From Linanthus parryae (lineage: Eukaryota > Streptophyta > Magnoliopsida > Ericales > Polemoniaceae), in the NCBI GenBank assembly GCA_023055425.1, contig JALGPY010000002.1:154515345-154579344 (forward strand): a DNA stretch of 64,000 nucleotides. Direction: 5' to 3'. The notes beneath the pieces were generated by a model, which saw nothing but the letters and a program-made list of their open reading frames with translations, was not told the origin of the DNA and ran no database searches. A program made the position numbers and the translations under genes. Below are positions 1-62,040 of the stretch, one piece after another (position 1 is the stretch's first letter; each line of letters opens with the position of its first letter).

Positions 1-492
1 TATGCCTACAAATGACATGCGGAGAACATTTTCATGAAATAATTATGGTTGGTTGAAGGGTTCAAATTTATTGTTTAGCTGAACTTATTTTCATTTAATC
101 TATACTTCAAATTATTTGGAGAATGTGTTATAAAGTAGACAAAAAGAGAAGAGTGTCGCAGTATGCATGACACAGTATGCATCACAGTTACAATTTTTGA
201 AAGCTTAGCTGAAGGGGGTGAAAATGGCATTTCTCAAACTAGAAGGTGTGCATTGTCTTTTCATCAAACCTAAGATGGTGAAAGGGTTTTTTATCCATTT
301 TAAAATTTAATTTATATATTTAAAACAAAAAATGAGATGTCTCTACTTTCAATAACAGAGATGGATGGAAATTGCATATGCGCGTCAAATTAGAATAATG
401 TAGGGGATTTTGGTGGTAAATTAATAGTGCAATAGGTTAAGTGTAAAAAAAAATAAAACAAATAAGTTTTCGATAGAAAAATCAAAAAATAT
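1..492 (+). repeat. Partial unit, B-type right end
   Basis: The window opens inside the third intron-like stretch of a B-type right half (tatgcctacaaatgacatgc). It could be the end of a dimer or of a hybrid, since both end in B sequence. It nearly matches 5125-5616, down to the shared shortened aaaatttaattt run. Confidence 0.9.
122..286 (+). pseudogene. NRPD1-like last exon fragment, B-type
   Basis: Only exon-like block 4 is inside the window. It encodes the VCITVTIFESLAE stretch, but a gggggtg run (one G more than in the open copies) breaks the frame. The usual acceptor gcag reads ggag here. Confidence 0.7.
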
Positions 493-509
493 ATGAATAA
501 TGCTAACAA

Positions 510-701
510 TACCCGGGATGACACGACGACAAGACATGAACCCAACACGAGCGGGATTAGGTCGACACGAACGTGCAACTGGTCAACAATGGGTCGAACA
601 AAAAGTGACACGAAAATAAATGGGTCTTCGCCGGGTCGACAAATTTCTGACCCGGTTCAACCCAACCCAGAACCCGTTGGGATTACCCAAATTGCCAGGC
701 C
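510..701. repeat. CpG-rich cgggtcgac/cacgaac segment, type A form
   Basis: A GC- and CpG-rich island in an otherwise AT-rich monomer. It contains gtcgac several times, repeated acacga(a)c and acccggttcaaccca, and ends attgccaggcc. Degenerate arrays of such motifs are common dispersed repeats in plant genomes (from memory; I do not assign a family). It recurs about 17-209 bases after every A or hybrid unit start and separates the last NRPD1-like exon of one monomer from the first of the next. An open frame of 89 codons crosses it on the + strand in A copies, but the homologous B frame has stops, so I do not call it a gene. Confidence 0.6.
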
Positions 702-870
702 ATTCCAGAGGCTACACACAAAGGAGTATTCTATCTTCCCAAAGGTATTAGAGCTCAAATGAACTAACAAATGGCTGATTTTTTTTTCTTTTTATAAAAA
801 CTACTTATAACTCCCCGAAAATATGAGCTCTTTGAATTGTGAAGCACAAAATGCTAGTTGTACCCTGCAG

Positions 871-2004
871 ATTCTTGACAAATGATAGATATACATCAAG
901 AAGGAAAAAACCTAGTCAAATTAAGCTTAATGGGTATGTTGGAAATTTGTGATGTCATATACGAGAAACTAAAAGACAATGACATTGTGATGATAAACAT
1001 GCCTCAGTCATCGCGTTGATGGTGAAGGTCCTTCCCCAAACTCAGTTTTAATTCATAAAGCCACTTATAGTTCGCCATTCCGAGGGGATTTAGTTGTGAC
1101 TATCTGCATGGGTATGTTCTTTAGCTTTTAGTATGCAGCCTTAGAGATACAGTCTCATCTGGAGAGTCCAAACTTTTCAAACATATTTCTATGGTGATGA
1201 TATTGTAAGATCTTGTCTCATTTATGCTCTTCTCTGGCATACCTAATGTTTGCCATAATGTTTATTGTGCTACATCTTCATTCGTACAATATCTTAATGT
1301 CCTTATAATTCATATTGCATTCTGATTATAATGAGAGTGTTTTTTAATTCCGGCTTATTTATCTTTCCTTTGGATTTTAGCTTCTCTCCGGAGACTGGGA
1401 GCCGCCGTAAACATGGTACCAGTCCATCCATGGGTCCGCCATTTTAATATCTCCAAGGTATGAAAATCCAGAATTAGTTCTCTTGTAAATTCTTTTTCTC
1501 ATTATTTCTTATCGGTTGTTATGTAATTTTCAAGATATATTAAAGAGGAGAAGACCTGTAGTGAAGCCAATTCTCAAAAAATATTAACCCATAACAGAAA
1601 ATAACAAGCAACTAAGCTTCTTTTTGTCTGTTGACCATCTGATTTGTTGTTCAGCTTTTGTAAGTCTAACTAAATTCTTGTTTTGTGTTTTTTCTCTGCG
1701 CCACTCTTTATTCGATTCTCTGTATCTACAAATGACATGTGAAAAACTTTGTTTCATGAAAGAATTATAGTTTGTTGAAAGGTTCAAATTTGTTATTTAG
1801 CTTAATTGATGATATATACTCCATACTTTAAATTATTTGCAAAATATGTTATGATTAAAATAAAAGAGAAGAGCGTCACAGTATGCATGACACAGTCTGC
1901 ATCACAGTTACAATTGCTGAAAGCTTAGCTGAAGAGGTGAAAGTGCCATTTCTAAAACTAGAATGTGTGAAGTGTTTTTTCATCAAACCTAAGGGGAGAA
2001 AGGG
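871..2004 (+). pseudogene. NRPD1 (RNA polymerase IV largest subunit) fragment, type A reference copy
   Basis: NRPD1 is the catalytic largest subunit of plant RNA polymerase IV, which starts 24-nt siRNA production in RNA-directed DNA methylation in the nucleus. Four exon-like blocks lie in gene order: 871-1204 (IHQEGKNLVKLSLMG, DVIYEKLKDNDIVMINMP, then, after a break, the metal-loop region and YAALEIQSHLE), 1381-1457 (GAAVNMVPVHPWVRHFNISK, followed by a GTATGA donor), about 1535-1611 (ILKRRR) and about 1843-2004 (VCITVTIAESLAEEVKVP). Damage: about 19 bases lost after INMPQS with a TGA at 1017, one base lost in the DFDGD metal loop, TAG in the next block, donor after block 3 changed to ctaagc, and acceptor before block 4 changed to gcaa. 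The match to NRPD1 is from memory; the polymerase call is strong, and the NRPD1 rather than NRPE1 choice rests on the SPFRG stem before the metal loop. Confidence 0.8.
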
Positions 2005-2223
2005 TCTTTTATACATTTTAAAAATGTAATTTAGATATTTAAAATAAAAGAGTGAGTTGTCGTTACTTTCAATAACGGAGATGGATGAAATCATACTATT
2101 CGTCCAAAATTAGGATAATGTAAGGGATTCTGGTGGAAATTAATAGTGTGATAGGTTAAGTGTAAAAAAAAAGACAATTAAATAACCGATGAAAAATGCA
2201 AAAATATATGCATAATTCTAACA

Positions 2224-2416
2224 ATATCTCGGTCGACACGACGATAAGACACGAACCCGACACGAGCGGGCTTTGATCGACATGAACGTGTAACGGGTAA
2301 AAACGGTTTGAACCGTAAGTGATACGAAAATAAATAGGTCTACGCCCGGTCGATAAATTTATGACCCGGTTCAACCCAACAAGGAACTCGGTGGGTTGAC
2401 CGGAATTTCCAGACCT
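2224..2416. repeat. CpG-rich cgggtcgac/cacgaac segment, type B form
   Basis: Homologous to the type A segment and in the same place in the monomer, so it was present before A and B split. It has diverged (atctcggtcgacacg, ggtttgaaccg, gaatttccagacc). It recurs about 16-208 bases after every B start. Confidence 0.6.
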
Positions 2417-2583
2417 AATTAAGAGGCTAAAGATAATGGAGTGTTTTGTCTTCACAAACGAAATAGAGATCAAATGAACTAACGCAGGGCAGGTTTTCTT
2501 CTTTTTATAATAACTACTTACAAGTCTCCAAAAATTTGAGCTCTTTGAATTGTGAAGCACAAAATGCCAGTTGTACTTTGCTG

Positions 2584-3713
2584 ATTTTGGAAGAATGAAA
2601 TCTATACATCCGGAGGGGAAAAACTTCTTCAAATTAAGCTTATCGGGTAAGTTGGAAGTTGGTAATGTCATATACCAGAAAATCAATGACTATGATATCG
2701 TGATGATAAACATGCCCCCATCTATTCAGCCACACTCATTCATCGCGTTGGCGGTGAAGGTCCTTACACAAAGCTCAGTTTTATTCATAAAGCTACTTTT
2801 ATGTTCGCCATTCCGAGGATAATTAGATTTGGTTGTCTGCTAGGGCATGTTCTTTGGATTTGAGTATGCAGCCTTAGAGATTCATTCTCATCCGGGGAGA
2901 CTACTCTTTTCAAACACTATTTCTGAGGTTATGATACTGTAAGATCTTGTTTCATTTAGGCTCTTATATGGCACACCTAATGTTTGTCATAATGTTTATT
3001 GAGCTACATGTTTAGTCATACAGTATCTTAATGTCCTTAAAATTCTTATAGCATTATGATTATAATGAGAGAATGCCGGATTTTTATCATTTCTATAGAA
3101 TTTCGCTTCTCTCCGTAACTTGGGAGCCGCTGTAAAAATTGTACCAGTCCATGGGTCTACCATTTTCATATCTTCAAGGTCTGATAATCAAGAATCATTT
3201 CTCTGGTTGCTTCTTTTCTCATTTTTTCTTACTAGGTTGTTATTTCCAGGATATATTAAAGAGGAGAAGACCTATGATGAAGCCAAATCTAAAAAATAGA
3301 ACTTAAAATAACAAGCAAGTTAGCTTATTTTTGTCTGTTGACCATCTGATTTGTTGTTTAACTTTTGTGTGTCTAACTAAATTTTTGTTTTATGTTCTTT
3401 TTGTGCTCCACTCTTTATTCCATTCTCTATGCCTACAAATGACATGCGGAGAACATTTTCATGAAATAATTATGGTTGGTTGAAGGGTTGAAATTTATTG
3501 TTTAGCTGAACTTATTTTCATTTATTCTATACTTTAAATTATTTGCAGAATGTGTTATAAAGTAGACAAAAAGAGAAGAGTGTCGCAGTATGCATGACAC
3601 AGTATGCATCACAGTTACAATTTTTGAAAGCTTAGCTGAAGGGGGTGAAAATGGCATTTCTCAAACTAGAAGGTGTGCATTGTCTTTTCATCAAACCTAA
3701 GATGGTGAAAGGG
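2584..3713 (+). pseudogene. NRPD1 fragment, type B reference copy
   Basis: The clearest evidence for the array's origin. Block 1 (2584-2938) reads openly through IHPEGKNFFKLSLSGKLEVG and INMPPSIQPHSFIALAVKVL to CSPFRG. This is the plant Pol IV form of the stretch leading into the catalytic metal-A loop. TAA follows at 2820 where DFDGDCLHGYV is expected; DNA like that loop remains (ggttgtctgctagggcatg) but is one base short. The sequence then jumps to GFEYAALEIHSHPERLLFSN, a block that in NRPD1 lies several hundred residues further on, and meets a gtaag donor at 2939. Block 2 (3106-3178) has lost four bases in the PWV motif. Block 3 (3250-3319) follows a tttccag acceptor. Block 4 (3549-3713) follows tttgcag and carries CITVTIFES. 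Confidence 0.85.
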
Positions 3714-3921
3714 TCTTTTATACATTTTAAAATTTTAATTTATATATTTAAAACAAAAAATGAGATGTCGCTACTTTCAATAACGGAGATGGATGGAAAT
3801 TGCATATGCGCGTCAAATTAGAATAATGTAGGGGATTTTGGTGGTAAATTAATAGTGCAATAGGTTAAGTGTAAAAAAACAATAAAACAAATAAGTTTCC
3901 GATAGAAAAATCAAAAAATAT

Positions 3922-5616
3922 ATGAATAATTCTAACAATACCCGGGATGACACGACGACAAGACATGAACCCAACACGAGCGGGATTAGGTCGACACGAA
4001 CGTGCAACTGGTCAACAATGGGTCGAACAAAAACTGACCCAAAAATAAATGGGTCTTCGCCGGGTCGACAAATTTCTGACCCGGTTCAACCCAATCCAGA
4101 ACCCGTTGGGATTACCCAAATTGCCAGGCCATTCCAGAGGCTACACATGAAGGAGTATTCTATCTTCCCAAAGGTATTAGAGCTCAAATGAACTAACAAA
4201 TGACTGATTTTTTTTTTCTTTTTATAAAAACTACTTACAACTCCCCGAAAATATGAGCTCTTTGAATTGTGAAGCACAAAATGCTAGTTGTACCCTGCAG
4301 ATTCTTGACAAATGATAGATATACATCCGGAAGGAAAAAACCTCGTCAAATTAAGCTTAATGGGTATGTTGGAAATTTGTGATGTCATATAACAGAAACT
4401 CAAAGACAATGACATTGTGATGATAAACATGCCTCAGTCATCGCGTTGATGGTGAAGGTCCTTCCCCAAACTCAGTTTTAATTCATAAAGACACTTATAG
4501 TTCGCCATTCCGAGGGGATTTAGTTGTGACTATCTGCATGGGTATGTTCTTTGGATTTGAGTATGCAGCTTTAGAGATTCATTCTCATCCGGAGAGACTA
4601 CTCTTTTCAAACACTATTTCTGCGGTGATGATACTGTAAGATCTTGTTTCATTTAGGCTCTTATATGGCCCACCTAATGTTTGTCATAATGTTTATTGAG
4701 CTACATGTTTAGACATACAGTATCTTAATGTCCGTAAAATTCTTATAGCATTATGATTATAATGAGAGAATGCCGGATTTTTATCATTTCTATAGAATTT
4801 CGCTTCACTCCGTAACTTGGGAGCCGCTGTAAAAATTGTACCAGTCCATGGGTCTACCATTTTCATATCTTCAAGGTATGATAATCAAGAATCATTTCTC
4901 TGGTTGCTTCTTTTCTCATTTTTTCTTACTAGGTTGTTATTTCCAGGATATATTAAAGAGGAGAAGACCTATGATGAAGCCAAATCTAAAAAATAGAACT
5001 TAAAATAACAAGCAAGTTAGCTTATTTTTGTCTGTTGACCATCATATTTGTTGTTTAACTTTTGTGTGTCTAACTAAATTTTTGTTTTATGTTCTTTTTG
5101 TGCTCCACTCTTTATTCCATTCTCTATGCCTACAAATGACATGCGGAGAACATTTTCATGAAATAATTATGGTTGGTTGAAGGGTTCAAATTTATTGTTT
5201 AGCTGAACTTATTTTCATTTAATCTATACTTCAAATTATTTGCAGAATGTGTTATAAAGTAGACAAAAAGAGAAGAGTGTCGCAGTATGCATGACACAGT
5301 ATGCATCACAGTTACAATTTTTGAAAGCTTAGCTGAAGGGGGTGAAAATGGCATTTCTCAAACTAGAAGGTGTGCATTGTCTTTTCATCAAACCTAAGAT
5401 GGTGAAAGGGTTTTTTATCCATTTTAAAATTTAATTTATATATTTAAAACAAAAAATGAGATGTCTCTACTTTCAATAACAGAGATGGATGGAAATTGCA
5501 TATGCGCGTCAAATTAGAATAATGTAGGGGATTTTGGTGGTAAATTAATAGTGCAATAGGTTAAGTGTAAAAAAAAATAAAACAAATAAGTTTTCGATAG
5601 AAAAATCAAAAAATAT
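3922..5616 (+). repeat. Hybrid unit 1 (A/B recombinant, 1695 bp)
   Basis: Type A up to about 4543 (ctgcatgggtatg), type B from about 4553 (ggatttgagtatgcagc). The crossover lies in the shared atgttcttt, 4544-4552. Unlike the other seven hybrids it keeps the ordinary attccgagg just before the junction, so it may be a separate event. Confidence 0.93.
4301..5410 (+). pseudogene. NRPD1 fragment in hybrid 1
   Basis: Left part of block 1 is type A (with the 19-base loss), the GFEYAALEIHSHPERL part onward is type B. A cagaaact follows a damaged catataa where other copies read catatacc. Confidence 0.78.
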
Positions 5617-5994
5617 ATGAATAATGCTAACAATACCCGGGATGACACGACGACAAGACATGAACCCAACACGAGCGGGATTAGGTCGACACGAACGTGC
5701 AACTGGTCAACAATGGGTCGAACAAAAAGTGACACGAAAATAAATGGGTCTTCGCCGGGTCGACAAATTTCTGACCCGGTTCAACCCAACCCAGAACCCG
5801 TTGGGATTACCCAAATTGCCAGGCCATTCCAGAGGCTACACATAAAGGAGTATTCTATCTTCCCAAAGGTATTAGAGCTCAAATGAACTAACAAATGGCT
5901 GATTTTTTTTTCTTTTTATAAAAACTACTTATAACTCCCCGAAAATATGAGCTCTTTGAATTGTGAAGCACAAAATGCTAGTTGTACCCTGCTG

Positions 5995-7128
5995 ATTCTT
6001 GACAAATGATAGATATACATCAAGAAGGAAAAAACCTAGTCAAATTAAGCTTAATGGGTATGTTGGAAATTTGTGATGTCATATACCAGAAACTCAAAGA
6101 CAATGACATTGTGATGATAAACATGCCTCAGTCATCGCGTTGATGGTGAAGGTCCTTCCCCAAACTCAGTTTTAATTCATAAAGCCACTTATAGTTCGCC
6201 ATTCCGAGGGGATTTAGTTGTGACTATCTGCATGGGTATGTTCTTCAGCTTTTAGTATGCAGCCTTAGAGATACAGTCTCATCTGGAGAGTCCAAACTTT
6301 TCAAACATATTTCTATGGTGATGATATTGTAAGATCTTGTCTCATTTATGCTCTTCTCTGGCATACCTAATGTTTGCCATAATGTTTATTGTGCTACATC
6401 TTCATTCGTACAATATCTTAATGTCCTTATAATTCATATTGCATTCTGATTATAATGAGAGTGTTTTTTAATTCCGGCTTATTTATCTTTCCTTTGGATT
6501 TTAGCTTCTCTCCGGAGACTGGGAGCCGCCGTAAACATGGTACCAGTCCATCCATGGGTCCGCCATTTTAATATCTCCAAGGTATGAAAATCCAGAATTA
6601 GTTCTCTTGTAAATTCTTTTTCTCATTATTTCTTATCGGTTGTTATGTAATTTTCAAGATATATTAAAGAGGAGAAGACCTGTAGTGAAGCCAATTCTCA
6701 AAAAATATTAACCCATAACAGAAAATAACAAGCAACTAAGCTTCTTTTTGTCTGTTGACCATCTGATTTGTTGTTCAGCTTTTGTAAGTCTAACTAAATT
6801 CTTGTTTTGTGTTTTTTCTCTGCGCCACTCTTTATTCGATTCTCTGTATCTACAAATGACATGTGAAAAACTTTGTTTCATGAAAGAATTATAGTTTGTT
6901 GAAAGGTTCAAATTTGTTATTTAGCTTAATTGATGATATATACTCCATACTTTTAATTATTTGCAAAATATGTTATGATTAAAATAAAAGAGAAGAGCGT
7001 CACAGTATGCATGACACAGTCTGCATCACAGTTACAATTGCTGAAAGCTTAGCTGAAGAGGTGAAAGTGCCATTTCTAAAACTAGAATGTGTGAAGTGTT
7101 TTTTCATCAAACCTAAGGGGAGAAAGGG
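5995..7128 (+). pseudogene. NRPD1 fragment, type A, dimer 2
   Basis: Near duplicate of the dimer 1 A copy. The acceptor-like ccctgcag before block 1 is changed to ccctgctg. Confidence 0.78.
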
Positions 7129-7707
7129 TCTTTTATACATTTTAAAAATGTAATTTAGATATTTAAAATAAAAGAGTGAGTTGTCGTTACTTTCAATAAC
7201 GGAGATGGATGAAATCATACTATTCGTCCAAAATTAGGATAATGTAAGGGATTCTGGTGGAAATTAATAGTGTGATAGGTTAAGTGTAAAAAAAAAGACA
7301 ATTAAATAACCGATGAAAAATGCAAAAATATATGCATAATTCTAACAATATCTCGGTCGACACGACGATAAGACACGAACCCGACACGAGCGGGCTTTGA
7401 TCGACATGAACGTGTAACGGGTAAAAAGGGTTTGAACCGTAAGTGATACGAAAATAAATAGGTCTACGCCCGGTCGATAAATTTATGACCCGGTTCAACC
7501 CAACAAGGAACTCGGTGGGTTGACCGGAATTTCCAGACCTAATTAAGAGGCTAAAGATAATGGAGTGTTTTGTCTTCACAAACGAAATAGAGATCAAATG
7601 AACTAACGCAGGGCAGGTTTTCTTCTTTTTATAAAAACTACTTACAAGTCTCCAAAAATTTGAGCTCTTTGAATTGTGAAGCACAAAATGCCAGTTGTAC
7701 TTTGCTG

Positions 7708-8837
7708 ATTTTGGAAGAATGAAATCTATACATCCGGAGGGGAAAAACCTCTTCAAATTAAGCTTATCGGGTAAGTTGGAAGTTGGTAATGTCATATACC
7801 AGAAAATCAATGACGATGATATCGTGATGATAAACATGCCCCCATCTATTCAGCCACACTCATTCATCGCGTTGGCGGTGAAGGTCCTTACACCAAGCTC
7901 AGTTTTATTCATAAAGCTACTTTTATGTTCGCCATTCCGAGGATAATTAGATTTGGCTGTCTGCTAGGGCATGTTCTTTGGATTTGAGTATGCAGCCTTA
8001 GAGATTCATTCTCATCCGGAGAGACTACTCTTTTCAAACACTATTTCTGAGGTTATGATACTGTAAGATCTTGTTTCATTTAGGCTCTTATATGGCACAC
8101 CTAATGTTTGTCATAATGTTTATTGAGCTACATGTTTAGTCATACAGTATCTTAATGTCCTTAAAATTCTTATAGCATTATGATTATAATGAGAGAATGC
8201 CGGATTTTTATCATTTCTATAGAATTTCGCTTCTCTCCGTAACTTGGGAGCCGCTGTAAAAATTGTACCAGTCCATGGGTCTACCATTTTCATATCTTCA
8301 AGGTCTTATAATCAAGAATCATTTCTCTGGTTGCTTCTTTTCTCATTTTTTCTTACTAGGTTGTTATTTCCAGGATATATTAAAGAGGAGAAGACCTATG
8401 ATGAAGCCAAATCTAAAAAATAGAACTTAAAATAACAAGCAAGTTAGCTTATTTTTGTCTGTTGACCATCTGATTTGTTGTTTAACTTTTGTGTGTCTAA
8501 CTAAATTTTTGTTTTATGTTCTTTTTGTGCTCCACTCTTTATTCCATTCTCTATGCCTACAAATGACATGCGGAGAACATTTTCATGAAATAATTATGGT
8601 TGGTTGAAGGGTTGAAATTTATTGTTTAGCTGAACTTATTTTCATTTATTCTATACTTTAAATTATTTGCAGAATGTGTTATAAAGTAGACAAAAAGAGA
8701 AGAGTGTCGCAGTATGCATGACACAGTATGCATCACAGTTACAATTTTTGAAAGCTTAGCTGAAGGGGGTGAAAATGGCATTTCTCAAACTAGAAGGTGT
8801 GCATTGTCTTTTCATCAAACCTAAGATGGTGAAAGGG
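7708..8837 (+). pseudogene. NRPD1 fragment, type B, dimer 2
   Basis: Open through CSPFRG, then TAA. The donor after block 2 reads gtctta instead of gtatga. Confidence 0.83.
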
Positions 8838-9424
8838 TCTTTTATACATTTTAAAATTTTAATTTATATATTTAAAACAAAAAATGAGATGTCGCTACTT
8901 TCAATAACGGAGATGGATGGAAATTGCATATGCGCGTCAAATTAGAATAATGTAGGGGATTTTGGTGGTAAATTAATAGTGCAATAGGTTAAGTGTAAAA
9001 AAACAATAAAACAAATAAGTTTCCGATAGAAAAATCAAAAAATATATGAATATTTCTAACAATACCCGGGATGACACGACGACAAGACATGAACCCAACA
9101 CGAGCGGGATTAGGTCGACACGAACGTGCAACTGGTCAACAATGGGTCGAACAAAAAGTGACACGAAAATAAATGGGTCTTCGCCGGGTCGACAAATTTC
9201 TGACCCGGTTCAACCCAACCCAGAACCCGTTGGGATTACCCAAATTGCCAGGCCATTCCAGAGGCTACACATAAAGGAGTATTCTATCTTCCCAAAGGTA
9301 TTAGAGCTCAAATGAACTAACAAATGGCTGATTTTTTTTTTCTTTTTATAAAAACTACTTACAACTCCCCGAAAATATGAGCTCTTTGAATTGTGAAGCA
9401 CAAAATGCTAGTTGTACCCTGCAG

Positions 9425-10559
9425 ATTCTTGACAAATGATAGATATACATCAGGAAGGAAAAAACCTCGTCAAATTAAGCTTAATGGGTATGTTGGAAAT
9501 TTGTGATGTCATATACCCGAAACTCAAAGACAATGACATTGTGATGATAAACATTCCTCAGTCATCGCGTTGATGGTGAAGGTCCTTCCCCAAACTCAGT
9601 TTTAATTCATAAAGCCACTTATAGTTCGCCATTCCGAGGGGATTTAGTTGTGACTATCTGCATGGGTATGTTCTTTAGCTTTTAGTATGCAGCCTTAGAG
9701 ATACAGTCTCATCTGGAGAGTCCAAACTTTTCAAACATATTTCTATGGTGATGATATTGTAAGATCTTGTCTCATTTATGCTCTTCTCTGGCATACCTAA
9801 TGTTTGCCATAATGTTTATTGTGCTACATCTTCATTCGTACAATATCTCAATGTCCTTATAATTCATATTGCATTCTGATTATAATGACAGTGTTTTTTA
9901 ATTCCGGCTTATTTATCTTTCCTATGGAGTTTAGCTTCTCTCCGGAGACTGGGAGCCGCCGTAAACATTGTACCAGCCCATCCATGGGTCCGCCATTTTA
10001 ATATCTTCATGGTAAGAAAATCCAAAATTAGTTCTCTTGTAAATTCGTTTTCTCGTTATTTCTTATCGGGTTGTTATGTAATTTTCAAGATATATTAAAG
10101 AGGAGAAGACCTGTAGTGAAGCCAATTCTCAAAAAATATTATCCCATAACAGAAAATAACAAGCAACTAAGCTTCTTTTTGTTTGTTGACCATCTGATTT
10201 GTTGTTCAACTTTTGTAAGTCTAACTAAATTCTTGTTTTGTGCTTTTCCTGTGCGCCACTCTTTATTCTATTCTCTGTATCTACAAATGACATGTGAAAA
10301 ACTTTGTTTCACGAAAGAATTATAGTTTGTTGAAAGGTTCAAATTTGTTATTTAGCTTAATTGATGATATTTACTCCATAGTTTAAATTATTTATAAAAT
10401 ATGTTATGATTAAAATAAAAGAGAAGAGCGTCACAGTATGCATGACACAGTATGCATCACAGTTACAATTGCTGAAAGCTTAGCTGAAGAGGTGAAAGTG
10501 CCATTTCTAAAACTAGAATGTGTGAAGTGTTTTTTCATCAAACCTAAGAGAAGAATGGG
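9425..10559 (+). pseudogene. NRPD1 fragment, type A, dimer 3
   Basis: As the type A reference. Block 3 stays open further than usual (KPILKKYYPITENN, where other A copies have a TAA), and block 4 ends agaagaatggg instead of ggggagaaaggg. Confidence 0.77.
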
Positions 10560-11144
10560 TCTTTTATACATTTTAAAAATGTAATTTAGATATTTAAAAT
10601 AAAAAAGTGAGTTGTCCTTACTTTCAATAACGGAGATGGATGAAATCATACTATTCGTCCAAAATTAGGATAATGTAAGGGATTTTGGTGGAAATTAATA
10701 GTTTGATAGGTTAAGTGTAAAAAAAATAAATAAGACAATTAAATAACCGATGAAAAATTCAAAAATATATGCATAATGCTAACAATATCTCGGTCGACAC
10801 GACGATAAGAAACGAACCCGACACGAGCGGGCTTTGATCGACATGAACGTGTAACGGGTAAAAACGGTTTGAACCGTAAGTGATACGAAAATAAATGGGT
10901 CTACGCCCGGTCGATAAATTTATGACCCGGTTCAACCCAACAAGGAACGCGGTGGGTTGACCGGAATTTCCAGACCTAATCAAGAGGCTAAAGATAAAGG
11001 AGTGTTTTGTCTTCACAAACGAAATAGAGATCAAATGAACTAACGCAGGGCAGGTTTTTTTCTTTTTATATAAACTACTTACAAGTCTCCAAAAATGTGA
11101 GCTCTTTGAATTGTGAAGCACAAAATGCCAGTTGTACTTTGCTG

Positions 11145-50114: not shown

Positions 50115-51812
50115 ATGAATAATGCTAACAATACCCGGGATGACACGACGACAAGACATGAACCCAACACGAGCGGGAATAGGTCGACACGAACGTGCAA
50201 CTGGTCAACAATGGGTCGAACAAAAAGTGACACGAAAATAAATGGGTCTTCGCCGGGTCGACAAATTTCTGACCCGGTTCAACCCAACCCAGAACCCGTT
50301 GGGATTACCCAAATTGCCAGGCCATTCCAGAGGCTACACATAAAGGAGTATTCTATCTTCCCAAAGGTATTAGAGCTCAAATGAACTAACAAATGGCTGA
50401 TTTTTTATTTTCTTTTTATAAAAACTACTTACAACTCCCCGAAAATATGAGCTCTTTGAATTGTGAAGCACAAAATGCTAGTTGTACCCTGCAGATTCTT
50501 GACAAATGATAGATATACATCCGGAAGGAAAAAACCTCGTCAAATTAAGCTTAATGGGTATGTTGGAAATTTGTGATGTCATATACCAGAAACTCAAAGA
50601 CAATGACATTGTGATGATAAACATGCCTCAGTCATCGCGTTGATGGTGACGGTCCTTCCCCAAACTCAGTTTTAATTCATAAAGCCACTTATAGTTCGCC
50701 ATTCAGAGGGGATTTAGTTGTGACTATCTGCATGGGTATGTTCTTTGGATTTGATTATGCAGCTTTAGAGATTCATTCTCATCCGGAGAGACTACTCTTT
50801 TCAAACACTATTTCTGCGGTGATGATACTGTAAGATTTTGTTTCATTTAGGCTCTTATATGGCACACCTAATGTTCGTCATAATGTTTATTGAGCTACAT
50901 GTTTAGTCATACAGTATCTTAATGTCCTTAAAATTCTTATAATATTATGATTATAATGAGAGAATGCCGGATTTTTATCATTTCTAAAGAATTTCGCTTC
51001 TCTCCGTAACTTGGGAGCCGCTGTAAAAATTGTACCAGTCCATGGGTCTCCCATTTTCATATCTTCAAGGTATGATAATCAAGAATCATTTCTCTGGTTG
51101 CTTCTTTTCTCATTTTTTCTTACTAGGTTGTTATTTCCAGGATATATTAAAGAGGAGAAGACCTATGATGAAGCCAAATCTAAAAAATAGAACTTAAAAT
51201 AACAAGCAAGTTAGCTTATTTTTGTCTGTTGACCATCTGATTTGTTGTTTAACTTTTGTGTGTCTAACTAAATTTTTGTTTTATGTTCTTTTTGAGCTCC
51301 ACTCTTTATTCCATTCTCTATGCCTACAAATGACATGCGGAGAACATTTTCATGAAATAATTATGGTTGGTTGAAGGATTCAAATTTATTGTTTAGCTGA
51401 ACTTATTTTCATTTAATCTATACTTCAAATTATTTGCAGAATGTGTTATAAAGTAGACAAAAAAGAGAAGAGTGTCGCAGTATGCATGACACAGTATGCA
51501 TCACAGTTACAATTTTTGAAAGCTTAGCTGAAGGGGGTGAAAATGGCATTTCTCAAACTCGAAGGTCTGCATTGTCTTTTCATCAAACCTAAGATGGTGA
51601 AAGGGTCTTTTATCCATTTTAAAATTTTAATTTATATATTTAAAACAAAAAATGAGATGTCGCTACTTTCAATAACGGAGATGGATGGAAATTGCATATG
51701 CGCGTCAAATTAGAATAATGTAGGGGATTTTGGTGGTAAATTAATAGTGCAATAGGTCAAGTGTAAAAAACAATAAAACAAATAAGTTTCCGATAGAAAA
51801 ATCAAAAAATAT
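50115..51812 (+). repeat. Hybrid unit 6 (A/B recombinant, 1698 bp)
   Basis: Switch in 50738-50746. Differs from hybrid 7 at only a handful of sites, such as gtgacggtcc for gtgaaggtcc, gattatgcag for gagtatgcag and ataatattatg for ataacattacg. Confidence 0.93.
50495..51605 (+). pseudogene. NRPD1 fragment in hybrid 6
   Basis: As hybrid 5, with FDYAALEI (gattatgcag) for FEYAALEI. Confidence 0.78.
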
Positions 51813-53510
51813 ATGAATAATGCTAACAATACCCGGGATGACACGACGACAAGACATGAACCCAACACGAGCGGGAATAGGTCGACACGAACGTGCAACT
51901 GGTCAACAATGGGTCGAACAAAAAGTGACACGAAAATAAATGGGTCTTCGCCGGGTCGACAAATTTCTGACCCGGTTCAACCCAACCCAGAACCCGTTGG
52001 GATTACCCAAATTGCCAGGCCATTCCAGAGGCTACACATAAAGGAGTATTCTATCTTCCCAAAGGTATTAGAGCTCAAATGAACTAACAAATGGCTGATT
52101 TTTTATTTTCTTTTTATAAAAACTACTTACAACTCCCCGAAAATATGAGCTCTTTGAATTGTGAAGCACAAAATGCTAGTTGTACCCTGCAGATTCTTGA
52201 CAAATGATAGATATACATCCGGAAGGAAAAAACCTCGTCAAATTAAGCTTAATGGGTATGTTGGAAATTTGTGATGTCATATACCAGAAACTCAAAGACA
52301 ATGACATTGTGATGATAAACATGCCTCAGTCATCGCGTTGATGGTGAAGGTCCTTCCCCAAACTCAGTTTTAATTCATAAAGCCACTTATAGTTCGCCAT
52401 TCAGAGGGGATTTAGTTGTGACTATCTGCATGGGTATGTTCTTTGGATTTGAGTATGCAGCTTTAGAGATTCATTCTCATCCGGAGAGACTACTCTTTTC
52501 AAACACTATTTCTGCGGTGATGATACTGTAAGATCTTGTTTCATTTAGGCTCTTATATGGCACACCTAATGTTCGTCATAATGTTTATTGAGCTACATGT
52601 TTAGTCATACAGTATCTTAATGTCCTTAAAATTCTTATAACATTACGATTATAATGAGAGAATGCCGGATTTTTATCATTTCTAAAGAATTTCGCTTCTC
52701 TCCGTAACTTGGGAGCCGCTGTAAAAATTGTACCAGTCCATGGGTCTCCCATTTTCATATCTTCAAGGTATGATAATCAAGAATCATTTCTCTGGTTGCT
52801 TCTTTTCTCATTTTTTCTTACTAGGTTGTTATTTCCAGGATATATTAAAGAGGAGAAGACCTATGATGAAGCCAAATCTAAAAAATAGAATTTAAAATAA
52901 CAAGCAAGTTAGCTTATTTTTGTCTGTTGACCATCTGATTTGTTGTTTAACTTTTGTGTGTCTAACTAAATTTTTGTTTTATGTTCTTTTTGAGCTCCAC
53001 TCTTTATTCCATTCTCTATGCCTACAAATGACATGCGGAGAACATTTTCATGAAATAATTATGGTTGGTTGAAGGATTCAAATTTATTGTTTAGCTGAAC
53101 TTATTTTCATTTAATCTATACTTCAAATTATTTGCAGAATGTGTTATAAAGTAGACAAAAAAGAGAAGAGTGTCGCAGTATGCATGACACAGTATGCATC
53201 ACAGTTACAATTTTTGAAAGCTTAGCTGAAGGGGGTGAAAATGGCATTTCTCAAACTCGAAGGTCTGCATTGTCTTTTCATCAAACCTAAGATGGTGAAA
53301 GGGTCTTTTATCCATTTTAAAATTTTAATTTATATATTTAAAACAAAAAATGAGATGTCGCTACTTTCAATAACGGAGATGGATGGAAATTGCATATGCG
53401 CGTCAAATTAGAATAATGTAGGGGATTTTGGTGGTAAATTAATAGTGCAATAGGTCAAGTGTAAAAAACAATAAAACAAATAAGTTTCCGATAGAAAAAT
53501 CAAAAAATAT
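51813..53510 (+). repeat. Hybrid unit 7 (A/B recombinant, 1698 bp)
   Basis: Switch in 52436-52444. Last of the five-unit run. The gggaataggtcgac change near its start is shared with hybrid 6 and dimer 13. Confidence 0.93.
52193..53303 (+). pseudogene. NRPD1 fragment in hybrid 7
   Basis: Almost identical to hybrid 6, but keeps FEYAALEI. Block 3 reads tagaatttaaaat for tagaacttaaaat. Confidence 0.78.
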
Positions 53511-53887
53511 ATGAATAATGCTAACAATACCCGGGATGACACGACGACAAGACATGAACCCAACACGAGCGGGAATAGGTCGACACGAACGTGCAACTGG
53601 TCAACAATGGGTCGAACAAAAAGTGACACGAAAATAAATGGGTCTTCGCCAGGTCGACAAATTTCTGACCCGGTTCAACCCAACCCAGAACCCGTTGGGA
53701 TTACCCAAATTGCCAGGCCATTCCAGAGGCTACACATAAAGGAGTATTCTATCTTCCCAAAGGTATTAGAGCTCAAATGAACTAACAAATGGCTGATTTT
53801 TTTTCTTTTTATAAAAACTACTTACAACTCCCCGAAAATATGAGCTCTTTGAATTGTGAAGCACAAAATGCTAGTTGTACCCTGCAG

Positions 53888-55019
53888 ATTCTTGACAAAT
53901 GATATATACATCAGGAAGGAAAAAACCTCGTCAAATTAAGCTTAATGGGTATGTTGGAAATTTGTGATGTCATATACCAGAAACTCAAAGACAATGACAT
54001 TGTGATGATAAACATGCCTCAGTCATCGCGTTGATGGTGAAGGTCCTTCCCCAAAAGTCATTTTAATTCATAAAGCCACTTATAGTTCGCCATTCCGAGG
54101 GGATTTAGTTGTGACTATCTGCATGGGTATGTTCTTTAGCTTTTAGTATGCAGCCTTAGAGATACAGTCTCATCTGGAGAGTCCAAACTTTTCAAACATA
54201 TTTCTATGGTGATGATATTGTAAGATCTTGTCTCATTTATGCTCTTCTCTGGCATACCTAATGTTTGCCATAATGTTTATTGTGCTACATCTTCATTCGT
54301 ACAATATCTTAATGTCCTTATAATTCATATTGCATTCTGATTATAATGAGAGTGTTTTTTAATTCCGGCTTATTTATCTTTCCTATGGAGTTTAGCTTCT
54401 CTCCGGAGACTTGGAGCCGCCGTAAACATTGTACCAGTCCATCCATGGGTCCGCCATTTTAATATCTCCAAGGTATGAAAATCCAGAATTAGTTCTCTTG
54501 TAAATTCTTTTTCTCATTATTTCTTATCGGTTGTTATGTAATTTTCAAGATATATTAAAGAGGAGAAGACCTGTAGTGAAGCCAATTCTCAAAAAATATT
54601 AACCCATAACAGAAAATAACAAGCAACTAAGCTTCTTTTTGTCTGTTGACCATCTGATTTGTTGTTCAACTTTTGTAAGTCTAACTAAATTCTTGTTTTG
54701 TGCTTTTTCTCTGCGCCACTCTTTATTCGATTCTCTGTATCTACAAATGACATGTGAAAAACTTTGTTTCATGAAAGAATTATAGTTTGTTGAAAGGTTC
54801 AAATTTGTTATTTAGCTTAATTGATGATATATACTCCATACTTTAAATTATTTGCAAAATATGTTATGATTAAAATAAAAGAGAAGAGCATCACAGTATG
54901 CATGACACAGTATGCATCACAGTTACAATTGCTGAAAGCTTAGCTGAAGAGGTGAAAGTGCCATTTCTAAAACTAGAATGTGTGAAGTGTTTTTTCATCA
55001 AACCTAAGGGGAGAAAGGG
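53888..55019 (+). pseudogene. NRPD1 fragment, type A, dimer 13
   Basis: Two-base loss in block 1 (aaatgatatatacatc) and an altered ccaaaagtcattttaattc. Block 2 reads gagacttggagcc for gagactgggagcc. Confidence 0.77.
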
Positions 55020-55599
55020 TCTTTTATACATTTTAAAAATGTAATTTAGATATTTAAAATAAAAGAGTGAGTTGTCGTTACTTTCAATAACGGAGATGGA
55101 TGAAATCATACTATTCGTCCAAAATTAGGATAATGTAAGGGATTCTGGTGGAAATTAATAGTGTGATAGGTTAAGTGTAAAAAAAAAATACAATTAAATA
55201 ACCGATGAAAAATTCAAAAATATATGCATAATTCTAACAATATCTCGGTCGACATGACGATAAGACGCGAACCCGACACGAGCGGGCTTTGATCGACATG
55301 AACGTTTAACGGGTAAAAACGGTTTGAACCGTAAGTGATACGAAAATAAATGGGTCTACGCCCGGTCGATAAATTTATGACCCGGTTCAACCCAACAAGA
55401 AACGCGGTGGGTTGACCGGAATTTCCAGATTTAATCAAGAGGCTAAAGATAATGGAGTATTTTGTCTTCACAAACGAAATAGAGATCAAATGAACTAACG
55501 CAGGGCAGGTTTTCTTCTTTTTATAAAAACTACTTACAAGTCTCCAAAAATTTGAGCTCTTTGAATTGTGAAGCACAAAATGCCAGTTGTACTTTGCTG

Positions 55600-56727
55600 A
55601 TTTTGGAAGAATGAAATCTATACATCCGGAGGGGAAAAACCTCTTCAAATTAAGCTTATCGGGTAAGTTGGAAGTTGGTAATGTCATATACCTGAAAATC
55701 AATGACGATGATATCGTGATGATAAACATGCCCCCATCTATTCAGCCACACTCATTCATCGCGTTGGCGGTGAAGGTCCTTACACCAAGCTCAGTTTTAT
55801 TCATAAAGCCACTTTTATGTTCGCCATTCCGAAGACAATTAGATTTGGCTGTCTGCTAGGGCATGTTCTTTGGATTTGAGTATGCAGCTTTAGAGATTCA
55901 TTCTCATCCGGAGAGACGACTCTTTTCAAACACTATTTCTCCGGTGATGATACTGTAAGATCTTGTTTCATTTAGGCTCTTATATGGCACACCTAATGTT
56001 TGTCATAATGTTTATTGAGCTACATGTTTAGTCATACAGTATCTTAATGTCCTTAAAATTCTTATAGCATTATGATTATAATGAGAGAATGCCGGATTTT
56101 TATCACTTCTATAGAATTTCGCTTCTCTCCGTAACTTGGGAGCCGCTGTAAAAATTGTACCAGTCCATGGGTCTACCATTTTCATATCTTCAAGGTATGA
56201 TAATCAAGAATCATTTCTCTGGTTGCTTCTTTTCTCATTTTTTCATACCAGGTTGTTATTTCCAGGATATATTAAAGAGGAGAAGACCTATGATGAAACC
56301 AAATCTAAAAATAGAACTTAAAATAACAAGCAAGTAAGCTTATTTTTGTTTATTGACCATCTGATTTGTTGTTTAACTTTTGTGTGTCTAACTAAATTTT
56401 GGTTTTATGTTCTTTTTGTGCTCCACTCTTTATTCCATTCTCTTTGCCTACAAATGACATGCGGAGAACATTTTCATGAAATAATTATGGTTGGTTGAAG
56501 GGTTCAAATTTATTGTTTAGCTGAACTTATTTTCATTTAATCTATACTTCAAATTATTTGCAGAATGTGTTATAAAGTAGACAAAAAGAGAAGAGTGTCG
56601 CTGTATGCATGACACAGTATGCATCACAGTTACAATTTTTGAAAGTTTAGCTGAAGGGGTGAAAATGGCATTTCTCAAACTAGAAGGTGTGCATTGTCTT
56701 TTCATCAAACCTAAGATGGTGAAAGGG
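55600..56727 (+). pseudogene. NRPD1 fragment, type B, dimer 13
   Basis: Open past CSPFR: gaagacaatta replaces gaggataatta, so the frame runs on as RQLDLAVC to a TAG at 55857, seven codons beyond the usual stop. Confidence 0.84.
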
Positions 56728-57312
56728 TCTTTTATCCATTTTAAAATTTTGATTTATATATTTAAAACAAAAAATGAGATGTCGCTACTTTCAATAACGG
56801 AGATGGATGGAAATTGCATATGCGCGTCAAATTAGAATAATGTAGGGGATTTTGGTGGTAAATTAATAGTGCAATAGGTTAAGTGTAAAAAAACAATAAA
56901 ACAAATAAGTTTCCGATAGAAAAATCAAAAAATATATGAATAATGCTAACAATACCCTGGATGACACGACGACAAGACATGAACCCAACACGAGCGGGAT
57001 TAGGTCGACACGAACGTGCAACTGGTCAACAATGGGTCGAACAAAAAGTGACACGAAAATAAATGGGTCTTCGCCGGGTCGACAAATTTCTGACCCGGTT
57101 CAACCCAACCCAGAACCCGTTGGGATTACCCAAATTGCCAGGCCATTCCAGAGGCTACACATAAAGGAGTATTCTATCTTCCCAAAGGTATTAGAGCTCA
57201 AATGAACTAACAAATGGTTGATTTTTTTTCTTTTTATAAAAACTACTTACAACTCCCCGAAAATATGAGCTCTTTGAATTGTGAAGCACAAAATGCTAGT
57301 TGTACCCTGCAG

Positions 57313-58443
57313 ATTCTTGACAAATGATATATACATCAGGAAGGAAAAAACCTCGTCAAATTAAGCTTAATGGGTATGTTGGAAATTTGTGATGTCATAT
57401 ACCAGAAACTCAAAGACAATGACATTGTGATGATAAACATGCCTCAGTCATCGCGTTGATGGTGAAGGTCCTTCCCCAAACTCATTTTAATTCATAAAGC
57501 CACTTATAGTTCGCCATTCCGAGGGGATTTAGTTGTGACTATCTGCATGGGTATGTTCTTTAGCTTTTAGTATGCATCCTTAGAGATACAGTCTCATCTG
57601 GAGAGTCCAAACTTTTCAAACATATTTCTATGGTGATGATATTGTAAGATCTTGTCTCATTTATGCTCTTCTCTGGCATACCTAATGTTTGCCATAATGT
57701 TTATTGTGCTACATCTTCATTCGTACAATATCTTAATGTCCTTATAATTCATATTGCATTCTGATTATAATGAGAGTGTTTTTTAATTCCGGCTTATTTA
57801 TCTTTCCTATGGAGTTTAGCTTCTCTCCGGAGACTTGGAGCCGCCGTAAACATTGTACCAGTCCATCCATGGGTCCGCCATTTTAATATCTCCAAGGTAT
57901 GAAAATCCAGAATTAGTTCTCTTGGAAATTCTTTTTCTCATTATTTCTTATCGGTTGTTATGTAATTTTCAAGATATATTAAAGAGGAGAAGACCTGTAG
58001 TGAAGCCAATTCTCAAAAAATATTAACCCATAACAGAAAATAACAAGCAACTAAGCTTCTTTTTGTCTGTTGACCATCTGATTTGTTGTTCAACTTTTGT
58101 AAGTCTAACTAAATTCTTGTTTTGTGCTTTTTCTCTGCGCCACTCTTTATTTGATTCTCTGTATCTACAAATGACATGTGAAAAACTTTGTTTCATGAAA
58201 GAATTATAGTTTCTTGAAAGGTTCAAATTTGTTATTTAGCTTAATTGATGATATATACTCCATACTTTAAATTATTTGCAAAATATGTTATGATTAAAAT
58301 AAAAGAGAAGAGCATCACAGTATGCATGACACAGTATGCATCACAGTTACAATTGCTGAAAGCTTAGCTGAAGAGGTGAAAGTGCCATTTCTAAAACTAG
58401 AATGTGTGAAGTGTTTTTTCATCAAACCTAAGGGGAGAAAGGG
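57313..58443 (+). pseudogene. NRPD1 fragment, type A, dimer 14
   Basis: Shares the two-base loss with dimer 13. It reads tatgcatcctta where other A copies have tatgcagcctta. Confidence 0.77.
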
Positions 58444-59023
58444 TCTTTTATACATTTTAAAAATGTAATTTAGATATTTAAAATAAAAGAGTGAGTTGTC
58501 GTTACTTTCAATAACGGAGATGGATGAAATCATACTATTCGTCCAAAATTAGGATAATGTAAGGGATTCTGGTGGAAATTAATAGTGTGATAGGTTAAGT
58601 GTAAAAAAAAAATACAATTAAATAACCGATGAAAAATTCAAAAATATATGCATAATTCTAACAATATCTCGGTCGACACGACGATAAGACGCGAACCCGA
58701 CACGAGCGGGCTTTGATCGACATGAACGTGTAACGGGTAAAAACGGTTTGAACCGTAAGTGATACGAAAATAAATGGGTCTACGCCCGGTCGATAAATTT
58801 ATGACCCGGTTCAACCCAACAAGAAACGCGGTGGGTTGACCGGAATTTCCAGACCTAATCAAGAGGCTAAAGATAATGGAGTATTTTGTCTTCACAAACG
58901 AAATAGAGATCAAATGAACTAACGCAGGGCAGGTTTTCTTCTTTTTATAAAAACTACTTACAAGTCTCCAAAAATTTGAGCTCTTTGAATTGTGAAGCAC
59001 AAAATGCCAGTTGTACTTTGCTG

Positions 59024-60151
59024 ATTTTGGAAGAATGAAATCTATACATCCGGAGGGGAAAAACCTCTTCAAATTAAGCTTATCGGGTAAGTTGGAAGTT
59101 GGTAATGTCATATACCAGAAAATCAATGACGATGATATCGTGATGATAAACATGCCCCCATCTATTCAGCCACACTCATTCATCGCGTTGGCGGTGAAAG
59201 TCCTTACACCAAGCTCAATTTTATTCATAAAGCCACTTTTATGTTCGCCATTCCGAGGATAATTAGATTTGGCTGTCTGCTAGGGCATGTTCTTTGGATT
59301 TGAGTATGCAGCTTTAGAGATTCATTCTCATCCGGAGAGACTACTCTTTTCAAACACTATTTCTGCGGTGATGATACTGTAAAATCTTGTTTCATTTAGG
59401 CTCTTATATGGCACACCTAATGTTTGTCATAATGTTTTTTGAGCTACATGTTTAGTCATACAGTATCTTAATGTCCTTAAAATTCTTATAGCATTACGAT
59501 TATAATGAGAGAATGCCGGATTTTTATCATTTCTATAGAATTTCGCTTCTCTCCGTAACTTGGGAGCCGCTGTAAAAATTGTACCAGTCCAATGGTCTAC
59601 CATTTTCATATCTTCAAGGTATGATAATCAAGAATCATTTCTCTGGTTGCTTCTTTTCTCATTTTTTCATACCAGGTTGTTATTTCCAGGATATATTAAA
59701 GAGGAGAAGACCTATGATGAAGCCAAATCTAAAAATAGAACTTAAAATAACAAGCAAGTAAGCTTATTTTTGTTTATTGACCATCTGATTTGTTGTTTAA
59801 CTTTTGTGTGTCTAACTAAATTTTTGTTTTATGTTCTTTTTGTGCTCCACTCTTTATTCCATTCTCTTTGCCTACAAATGACATGCGGAGAACATTTTCA
59901 TGAAATAATTATGGTTGGTTGAAGGGTTAAAATTTATTGTTTAGCTGAACTTATTTTCATTTAATCTATACTTCAAATTATTTGCAGAATGTGTTATAAA
60001 GTAGACAAAAAGAGAAGAGTGTCGCAGTATGCATGACACAGTATGCATCACAGTTACAATTTTTGAAAGTTTAGCTGAAGGGGTGAAAATGGCATTTCTC
60101 AAACTAGAAGGTGTGCATTGTCTTTTCATCAAACCTAAGATGGTGAAAGGG
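59024..60151 (+). pseudogene. NRPD1 fragment, type B, dimer 14
   Basis: Open to CSPFRG. The donor after block 1 reads gtaaaa. Block 2 reads gtccaatggtc. Block 4 is open. Confidence 0.83.
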
Positions 60152-60359
60152 TCTTTTATCCATTTTAAAATTTTGATTTATATATTTAAAACAAAAAATG
60201 AGATGTCGCTACTTTCAATAACGGAGATGGATGGAAATTGCATATGCGCGTCAAATTAGAATAATGTAGGGGATTTTGGTGGTAAATTAATAGTGCAATA
60301 GGTTAAGTGTAAAAAAACAATAAAACAAATAAGTTTCCGATAGAAAAATCAAAAAATAT

Positions 60360-62040
60360 ATGAATAATGCTAACAATACCCGGGATGACACGACGACAAG
60401 ACATGAACCCAACACGAGCGGGATTAGGTCGACACGAACGTGCAACTGGTCAACAATGGGTCGAACAAAAACTGACACGAAAATAAATGGGTCTTCGCCG
60501 GGTCGACAAATTTCTGACCCGGTTCAACCCAACCCAGAACCCGTTGGGATTACCCAAATTGCCAGGCCATTCCAGAGGCTACACATAAAGGAGTATTCTA
60601 TCTTCCCAAAGGTATTAGAGCTCAAATGAACTAACAAATGGCTGATTTTTTTTTCTTTTTATAAAAACTACTTACAACTCCCCGAAAATATGAGCTCTTT
60701 GAATTGTGAAGCACAAAATGCTAGTTGTACCCTGCAGATTCTTGACAAATGATAGATATACATCAGGAAGGAAAAAACCTCGTCAAATTAAGCTTAATGG
60801 GTATGTTGGAAATTTGTGATGTCATATACCAGAAACTCAAAGACAATGACATTGTGATGATAAAAATGCCTCAGTCATCGCGTTGATGGTGAAGGTCCTT
60901 CCCCAAACTCAGTTTTAATTCATAAAGCCACTTATAGTTCGCCATTCAGAGGGGATTTAGTTGTGACTATCTGCATGGGTATGTTCTTTGGATTTGAGTA
61001 TGCAGCTTTAGAGATTCATTCTCATCCGGAGAGACTACTCTTTTCAAACACTATTTCTGCGGTGATGATACTGTAAGATCTTGTTTCATTTAGGCTCTTA
61101 TATGGCACACCTAATGTTTGTCATAATGTTTATTGAGCTACATGTTTAGTCATACAGTATCTTAATGTCCTTAAAATTCTTATAGCATTATGATTATAAT
61201 GAGAGAATGCCGGATTTTTATCATTTCTATAGAATTTCGCTTCTCTCCGTAACTTGGGAGCCGCTGTAAAAATTGTACCAGTCCATGGGTCTACCATTTT
61301 CATATCTTCAAGGTATGATAATCAAGAATCATTTCTCTGGTTGCTTCTTTTCTCATTTTTTCTTACTAGGTTGTTATTTCCAGGATATATTAAAGAGGAG
61401 AAGACCTATGATGAAGCCAAATCTAAAAAATAGAACTTAAAATAACAAGCAAGTTAGCTTATTTTTGTCTGTTGACCATCTGATTTGTTGTTTAACTTTT
61501 GTGTGTCTAACTAAATTTTTGTTTTATGTTCTTTTTGAGCTCCACTCTTTATTCCATTCTCTATGCCTACAAATGACATGCGGAGAACATTTTCATGAAA
61601 TAATTATGGTTGGTTGAAGGGTTCAAAATTATTGTTTAGCTGAACTTATTTTCATTTAAACTATACTTCAAATTATTTGCAGAATGTGTTATAAAGTAGA
61701 CAAAAAAGAGAAGAGTGTCGCAGTATGCATGACACAGTATGCATCACAGTTACAATTTTTGAAAGCTTAGCTGAAGGGGGTGAAAATGGCATTTCTCAAA
61801 CTCGAAGGTCTGCATTGTCTTTTCATCAAACCAAAGATGGTGAAAGGGTCTTTTATCCATTTTAAAATTTTAATTTATATATTTAAAACAAAAAATGAGA
61901 TGTCGCTACTTTCAATAACGGAGATGGATGGAAATTGCATATGCGCGTCAAATTAGAATAATGTAGGGGATTTTGGTGGTAAATTAATCGTGCAATAGGT
62001 CAAGTGTAAAAAACAATAAAACAAATAAGTTTCCGATAGA
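60360..62040 (+). repeat. Hybrid unit 8, cut near its end by the CACTA insertion
   Basis: Switch in 60981-60989, with the derived attcagagg. The unit runs 1681 bases to aagtttccgataga and then stops. About 17 bases are missing relative to the 1698-base hybrids, and should lie beyond the transposon. Confidence 0.93.
60738..61848 (+). pseudogene. NRPD1 fragment in hybrid 8
   Basis: Last NRPD1-like copy before the transposon. A-type left with gataaaaatgcctc (INMP changed to IKMP), B-type right with LEGLHC in block 4. Confidence 0.78.

Follow-up and report, generated by a model that had tools for sequence, protein, structure and literature searches.

Structure of the array

The present study concerns a 64,000-nucleotide stretch of the Linanthus parryae genome (hereafter the window), located at positions 154515345-154579344 of contig JALGPY010000002.1 (C35) in an assembly of 1.51 Gb and 121 contigs. 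Positions 1-62040 of the window are occupied, on the + strand, by a head-to-tail array of monomers of about 1.7 kb derived from NRPD1, the gene for the catalytic subunit of RNA polymerase IV (Pol IV). An earlier note on this DNA had described a tandem repeat of about 36 copies of an NRPD1 fragment, and this count was borne out: a 19-base landmark, with up to 2 mismatches allowed, occurs 36 times in 1-62040 at a spacing of 1683-1720 bp, and 35 complete monomers lie between the landmarks. These comprise 14 monomers of type A, 14 of type B and 7 of a hybrid type C, with a mean identity of 98.3% among A copies, 97.0% among B and C copies taken together, and 83.8% between A and the B and C copies. 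A and B alternate in most of the array, resulting in a dimer period of 3.43 kb. Across the 14 AB pairs, the distances among A copies are correlated with those among the neighbouring B copies (Mantel rho 0.56, equalled or exceeded in 6 of 2000 permutations), and therefore the AB dimer has been amplified as a single unit. The C monomers, typed over 325 diagnostic columns, have an A-like start and a B-like remainder; because the switch lies between alignment columns 309 and 319 in 7/7 copies, all of them probably trace to one A x B exchange. The array combines the long head-to-tail run of kilobase-sized units of a macrosatellite with the higher-order units and concerted evolution of satellite DNA. 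The features of the array and of three example monomers (m01-m03) are as follows.

1..62040, + strand: NRPD1-derived macrosatellite, about 36 monomers of about 1.7 kb of types A, B and C, part of a longer array (landmark spacing, monomer typing)
826..2538, + strand: type A monomer, m01 (monomer typing)
2539..4255, + strand: type B monomer, m02 (monomer typing)
4256..5949, + strand: hybrid type C monomer, m03, A-like to column 309 and B-like from 319 (diagnostic columns)
2518..2852, + strand: NRPD1 exon in m02, residues about 347-457 as numbered in Arabidopsis, comprising the lead-in and a metal-A loop that has decayed (protein match; DNA match to host gene 3462-3798; positions derived from those in the B consensus)
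2856..2938, + strand: NRPD1 exon piece GFEYAALEI..., m02, residues 939 to about 966, fused to the metal-loop exon across an internal deletion, with a GT donor at 2939 (protein match, inspection of the joint)
2939..3105, + strand: retained NRPD1 intron, m02 (alignment to the host gene intron)
3106..3178, + strand: NRPD1 exon FSP..SPWVYHFHIFK, m02 (protein match, spliced match, host gene alignment)
3250..3297, + strand: NRPD1 exon DILKRRR..., m02, 3' of a CAG acceptor (spliced match, host gene alignment)
3596..3631, + strand: NRPD1 exon TVCITVTIFES, m02, residues 1041-1052, end of the gene homology (protein match, host gene alignment)
3628..3830, + strand: repeat of about 200 bp adjoining the gene homology at its 3' end, m02 (repeat comparison with the left edge of the array)
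3831..4234, + strand: remaining 0.4 kb or so of m02, with no NRPD1 or Pfam match (Pfam, host gene alignment)

Similarity to NRPD1 at the protein level

A clear preference for NRPD1 over the related polymerases, which the earlier note had named as a test of its reading, was borne out. The frame at 2541-2930 (segment 1) matched Arabidopsis NRPD1 (8xmb, 7eu0) with an expect value (E) of 2e-12, compared with 8e-6 to 1.1e-4 for NRPE1, 0.012-0.13 for archaeal Rpo1N, and 0.28 and 0.72 for Pol III, and no Pol II chain was matched at E<=10. The same segment matched RNA polymerase Rpb1 domain 2 in Pfam (E 6.4e-6). When residues 1-1078 of Arabidopsis NRPD1 were compared by tblastn with the consensus monomers of the three types, the four best matches of each were collinear on the + strand, again in agreement with the earlier note, and together covered residues 378-457, 939-983, 967-1011 and 1041-1068, the tail of the 939-983 match reading into an intron; an upstream extension from residue 347 scored 20-22 bits. 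In the window, the four segments were found at 35, 36, 36 and 37 places on the + strand and at none on the - strand (hits of at least 19 bits). The best chain scores were 52 for A and 84 for B, against at most 33 and 32 among 150 dinucleotide-shuffled versions of each, and the exons of the C-terminal part of B, joined at GT/AG sites, matched NRPD1 with E 3.2e-12, where the only other match was an unrelated chain (E 1.2) and neither NRPE1 nor any other polymerase was matched. These properties, namely collinear NRPD1 similarity that is better than that to NRPE1 and Pol II, are those of an NRPD1-derived pseudogene.

Several weaker matches were set aside. In the comparison with two pieces of NRPE1 (residues 307-637 and 736-1039), one piece matched segment 1 of B at 50 bits, compared with 61 for NRPD1, and the other gave a single - strand match in A (E 3.6), which was taken as chance, as was a Fungal_trans_2 match in Pfam to the spliced C-terminal piece (E 0.07, below the cut-off). 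A protein database search with the window frame read through returned 198 candidates, none at E<=10, in a database that may not contain plant NRPD1, and a six-frame Pfam scan of the last 0.56 kb or so of one B monomer, which is not NRPD1, returned nothing at E<=1.

The earlier statement that every monomer carries all of the NRPD1 pieces was true only in part. CSPFRG (1 mismatch) and exact ILKRRR were present in 35/35 complete monomers, while INMPPSIQPHSFIALAVKVL (up to 3 mismatches) was confined to the 14 B monomers, 19 of its bases being missing from A and C in 21/21 copies, and GFEYAALEIHSHPERL (3 mismatches) was found in 21/35 monomers, which are those of types B and C. PWVRHFNIS (1 mismatch) had been assigned to the A copies, and all 14 of the 35 monomers that carry it are indeed of type A.

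Derivation from the host gene

The NRPD1 gene of the same genome lies at C1:193601763-193603586 on the - strand. It is intact-looking, with an open frame of 682 codons that is 56% identical to Arabidopsis NRPD1 over residues 298-912, and exon matches for residues 28 to 1443 occur in order within 9.9 kb at this locus (L029, in which host gene positions are numbered here on the gene's own strand). The mapping of the array to this gene, suggested in the earlier note, resulted in two collinear blocks, at 3462-3798 (72-73% identity) and at 5323/5348-6092/6106 (65-67%), with E values down to 2.6e-95. The second block covers exons as well as introns, and its splice sites line up with those of the host gene; the first intron has a TCG acceptor in the B consensus and a TAG acceptor in A, and the second acceptor is AAG in A and CAG in B. 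Since introns and splice sites align with the host gene, the source of the array was genomic NRPD1 DNA and not a processed copy, and the retained introns also rule out a retropseudogene. About 1.5 kb of the host gene between the two blocks is missing from the monomer, the joint lying between GGGTATGTTC and GGATTTGAGTATGC, and NRPD1 accounts for about 1.1 of the 1.7 kb of the monomer, or about two thirds. The NRPD1 origin, the internal deletion and the retained introns are thus direct observations, as are the co-amplification of the AB dimers and the shared breakpoint of the C monomers.

The old NRPD1 frames carry stops and frameshifts in the consensus monomers. The differences between A and B in segment 1 numbered 19/80, 14/80 and 11/81 at codon positions 1, 2 and 3, showing no third-position bias, and identity between A and B was 83-89% in exons and 81-86% in introns. 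Because of this lack of third-position bias and the nearly equal divergence of exons and introns, no coding constraint was detected since A and B parted. Transitions made up 126 of 272 differences, and differences of the C-to-T type were found at 24/158 CG, 17/166 CHG and 85/856 CHH sites. The observed/expected ratio of CpG in the array was 0.74 and change at CG was only slightly faster; base composition is weak evidence on methylation, and these figures were given no weight.

Extent of the array and its left edge

A 29-base landmark (up to 2 mismatches) gave 311 forward and 0 reverse matches in the whole assembly, with 0 for the reversed control, and the places among the matches listed are all on C35, from 154099313 to 154431897. 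In the protein search, 14 of 47 NRPD1 matches fall within the array, all on the + strand, the last at C35:154972110, so that array-type places span at least about 0.87 Mb (C35:154099313 to 154972110), broken by other DNA. Of the 264 kb read in and around the window, monomer sequence makes up 212.6 kb, all on the + strand, and other DNA makes up 51.4 kb. The array extends both to the left and to the right of the window, rightward at least to C35:154689344, the limit of the sequence read. The end of the array that had been placed at 62040 is not an end, since a CACTA insertion begins at 62041 and the array resumes after 2300 bp.

In L033 (C35:154091000-154100999), which covers the left edge, the first copy holds more of the gene than an ordinary monomer, namely gene positions 3353-3426 and 3420-3790, broken by insertions, followed by 5347-6106. 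Directly before gene position 3353 lies an inverted copy (L033 3766-3955) of the 180-200 bp segment that follows the gene homology on its 3' side, with an identity of 74% to that of the first full monomer and 67-70% to those of other monomers; inverted repeats of about 180-200 bp thus adjoin both ends of the gene homology. As a separate observation, an insertion of about 0.55 kb in the edge copy (L033 about 6326-6880), hAT-like by eye, lies between two copies of TCTGCATG, and its right end resembles CAGGGGCGGA inverted.

A second NRPD1-derived family

With the host gene stretch as a DNA query, 85 matches were obtained (40 of 575 candidates scored), and those listed besides the gene itself form two clusters on C1, at 163.57-163.92 and 170.20/170.21-170.47 Mb, all on the - strand and about 6.3 Mb apart. 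The C1 matches of the protein search, the gene aside, fall in the same two clusters. The unit in a 10 kb portion (L032) consists of gene 4195-4616 followed by 5210/5221-5441, each found at six places with a spacing of 1.57-1.66 kb, and two other portions (L030 and L031) hold longer, irregular copies with 3585-4616. The internal deletion of this family differs from that of the C35 family, and both of its clusters share a contig with the NRPD1 gene. That two NRPD1-derived families exist in one genome suggests a locus that is readily copied in this way or whose copying is favoured.

At fixed sites of block 1, C35 and C1 agree against the gene 18 times, C35 and the gene against C1 once, and C1 and the gene against C35 10 times (3, 0 and 2 in block 2), in a comparison of three lineages without an outgroup; the two families may share a pseudogene ancestor. 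A shared stop codon was considered as proof of common ancestry and rejected, AGCTTTCAG and AGCTTTTAG both occurring within C35 and other copies having GGATTTGAG. Three further NRPD1-like sequences were noted in the genome: an isolated fragment with five stops outside the array (C35:102543703-102544083), an open gene candidate at C46:30503942-30505579 that is 33-37% identical to NRPD1 and is perhaps NRPE1, and a weaker candidate at C79:98533340-98533681 (33%).

Proposed origin and alternative explanations

Herein, we propose the following history for the array. A genomic stretch of NRPD1, corresponding to about positions 3353-6106 of the host gene with its exons and introns, would have been copied to another chromosome-sized contig and would have lost about 1.5 kb inside. 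This pseudogene, possibly within a terminal-inverted-repeat transposon that had captured it, would then have been duplicated in tandem, after which variants A and B would have diverged by about 16% and the AB pair would have become the unit spreading by unequal exchange. The C hybrids would have arisen from a single A x B crossover and were then presumably copied themselves. The end product would be non-coding satellite DNA, most likely heterochromatin, in which the old frames are without detectable constraint. We consider it very probable that the history as a whole, the amplification of an internally deleted genomic NRPD1 pseudogene fragment into non-coding satellite DNA, is correct; the transposon capture, unequal exchange as the driver, the heterochromatic state and the absence of function are steps that we infer. 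The earlier note was right and understated the case, because the satellite is very large and is accompanied in this genome by another NRPD1-derived repeat.

The first step of this history might have involved capture of the fragment between terminal inverted repeats, similar to that in Pack-MULEs, in which gene fragments lie inside Mutator-like elements with Mutator-type ends and a target-site duplication of about 9 bp. Such a capture before tandem amplification, which is a version of the favoured first step and not an alternative to it, is a serious possibility that falls somewhat short of probable. Inverted repeats at both ends of an intron-bearing gene fragment, as present at the left edge, are the expected trace of it, introns are kept in DNA-level capture, and two further places on C1 carry the same flanking segment (78-80%). 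The edge copy may resemble a Pack-MULE in being a genomic fragment with introns between inverted repeats; tandem amplification, however, does not belong to that definition. Several points weigh against the proposed history. No target-site duplication was identified by eye in the left-edge flanks, the left flank is matched over its outer 86 bp or so by a different repeat that is very common (about 38 of 41 scored matches, with 40 scored out of 1992 first-look candidates), and for these two reasons the capture is a step that we infer. Moreover, the flanking inverted repeats are only 67-74% alike and might have inserted separately at each side, neither a transposase nor a complete element of this family was identified, and the portion of the span that was read comprises the 264 kb including the window and 10 kb at the left edge.

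The array most likely has no function. If its small RNAs acted in trans on the intact NRPD1 gene, the array would form a feedback loop comparable to that of Suppressor of Stellate acting on Stellate. In favour of this, the array is homologous to a living gene; its 10,968 distinct 21-mers in the window include 19 exact sense matches to the host gene (82, 276 and 600 more with 1, 2 and 3 mismatches), compared with 0, 0, 0 and 5 antisense matches with 0, 1, 2 and 3 mismatches; 13 24-mers match exactly, and there are two NRPD1-derived repeat families in one genome. However, the exact sense 21-mers are confined to gene positions 5545-5568 and 5690-5724, two short stretches that are partly intron or splice-site sequence, and the overall identity of array and gene is 65-73%. 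Small-RNA feedback on NRPD1 is therefore possible in principle, resting on little sequence, and as an explanation of the array we judge it improbable. In a wider reading, NRPD1 might be a recurrent source of satellites in this lineage, with two differently deleted fragments at three places whose small RNAs would feed back on NRPD1 or on Pol IV itself, in which case a silencing polymerase would be tuned by repeats that derive from its own gene; we consider this reading improbable. A structural function, such as that of a centromere or of another heterochromatic block, would fit an array that is large, homogenized and in a single orientation wherever it was seen on C35. Against it, the array was seen at a single site on a single contig (C35, 154.1-155.0 of 191.6 Mb), the listed landmark places, part of the 311, are all on C35, and C1 carries a different family; such a role, which might still be that of the centromere of one chromosome, is rated as unlikely. 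Although tandem arrays are prone to mis-assembly, the monomers differ from one another, the hybrids share a single breakpoint, and a transposon with a target duplication interrupts the array; chance resemblance to NRPD1 is refuted by the shuffle scores and by the E of 2.6e-95 against the host gene. An artefact of either kind is hardly credible, and the amplified pseudogene fragment remains the preferred explanation.

Relation to known systems

Plant satellite DNAs of transposon or ribosomal DNA (rDNA)-spacer origin form homogenized head-to-tail arrays with higher-order units. The source of the present array differs from theirs in being a protein gene whose parent can be aligned in the same genome. 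The Stellate and Suppressor of Stellate repeats of Drosophila are tandem repeats made of a gene with a living relative and are linked to a small-RNA pathway; the NRPD1 array resembles them in this, whereas transcripts, small RNAs or a target effect would be hypothetical here, and its identity to the gene is only 65-73%. Among human macrosatellites, RS447 with a deubiquitinase open reading frame, D4Z4 with DUX4, and TAF11-Like are described as gene-bearing kilobase units whose copy number reaches about a hundred at one or two sites (PMC3018141). The L. parryae array is similar to these in its kilobase-sized units that carry gene sequence, and the TAF11-Like units also contain transposon pieces (PMC3018141). 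In contrast, the human units, as described there, keep the open reading frame, whereas the plant array has broken frames, introns and a gene deletion of about 1.5 kb, and it differs further in its plant host and in its derivation from the gene of a silencing polymerase. Gene-bearing macrosatellites are thus a known kind of event. A plant satellite of this kind derived from NRPD1 or from another gene was not reported in the literature searched, which consisted of search listings with subscription papers mostly outside it, and within these partial sources an NRPD1 parent with introns and a deletion, amplified twice in one genome, was not found described.

The present array is a well-documented case of a known gene giving rise to a large plant satellite, with the parent gene, an internally deleted derivative, a fuller edge copy, the dimer unit and the hybrids all visible in one assembly. 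Moreover, the parent encodes the catalytic subunit of Pol IV, and a direct test would therefore be possible of whether repeats made from the silencing machinery are silenced by the same machinery and feed back on its gene.

Inserted elements and sequence composition

The element that interrupts the array at the right of the window is a CACTA transposon of 2300 bp, reaching C35:154579684.

62041..64000, + strand: CACTA transposon in a B-like monomer, first 1960 of 2300 bp, with an AGA target duplication (ends and flanks)

Its ends are identical over 22 bases (CACTACTAGAAATATTAGCAAA) and are flanked by the 3 bp target duplication AGA, as in CACTA elements. No transposase domain was matched in Pfam at E<=1 in six frames of 62041-64000, the last 340 bp lying outside the scan. 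Repeats of the GCAGCATTAATGCTGC type are numerous in its subterminal regions, and its interior holds GA/CT-rich tracts. A literature search for the end sequence gave only unrelated papers.

The window gave no match in a scan for tRNAs or in one against Rfam at the gathering threshold, and none of the short inverted pairs within monomers (19 and 8) was convincing as inverted ends. Words of the GACACGA and CCCGG type are dense in both A and B (e.g. window 3935-4130), and this part of the monomer may resemble a non-autonomous hAT-type repeat. To the right of the window, an insert of 348 bp was found at C35:154595201, 154609224, 154614697, 154620169 and 154625625 (L019-L022). The copies are 99-100% identical, one being about 18 bp shorter, and three of the four successive distances are near 5.46 kb; this insert is itself amplified inside a higher-order unit.

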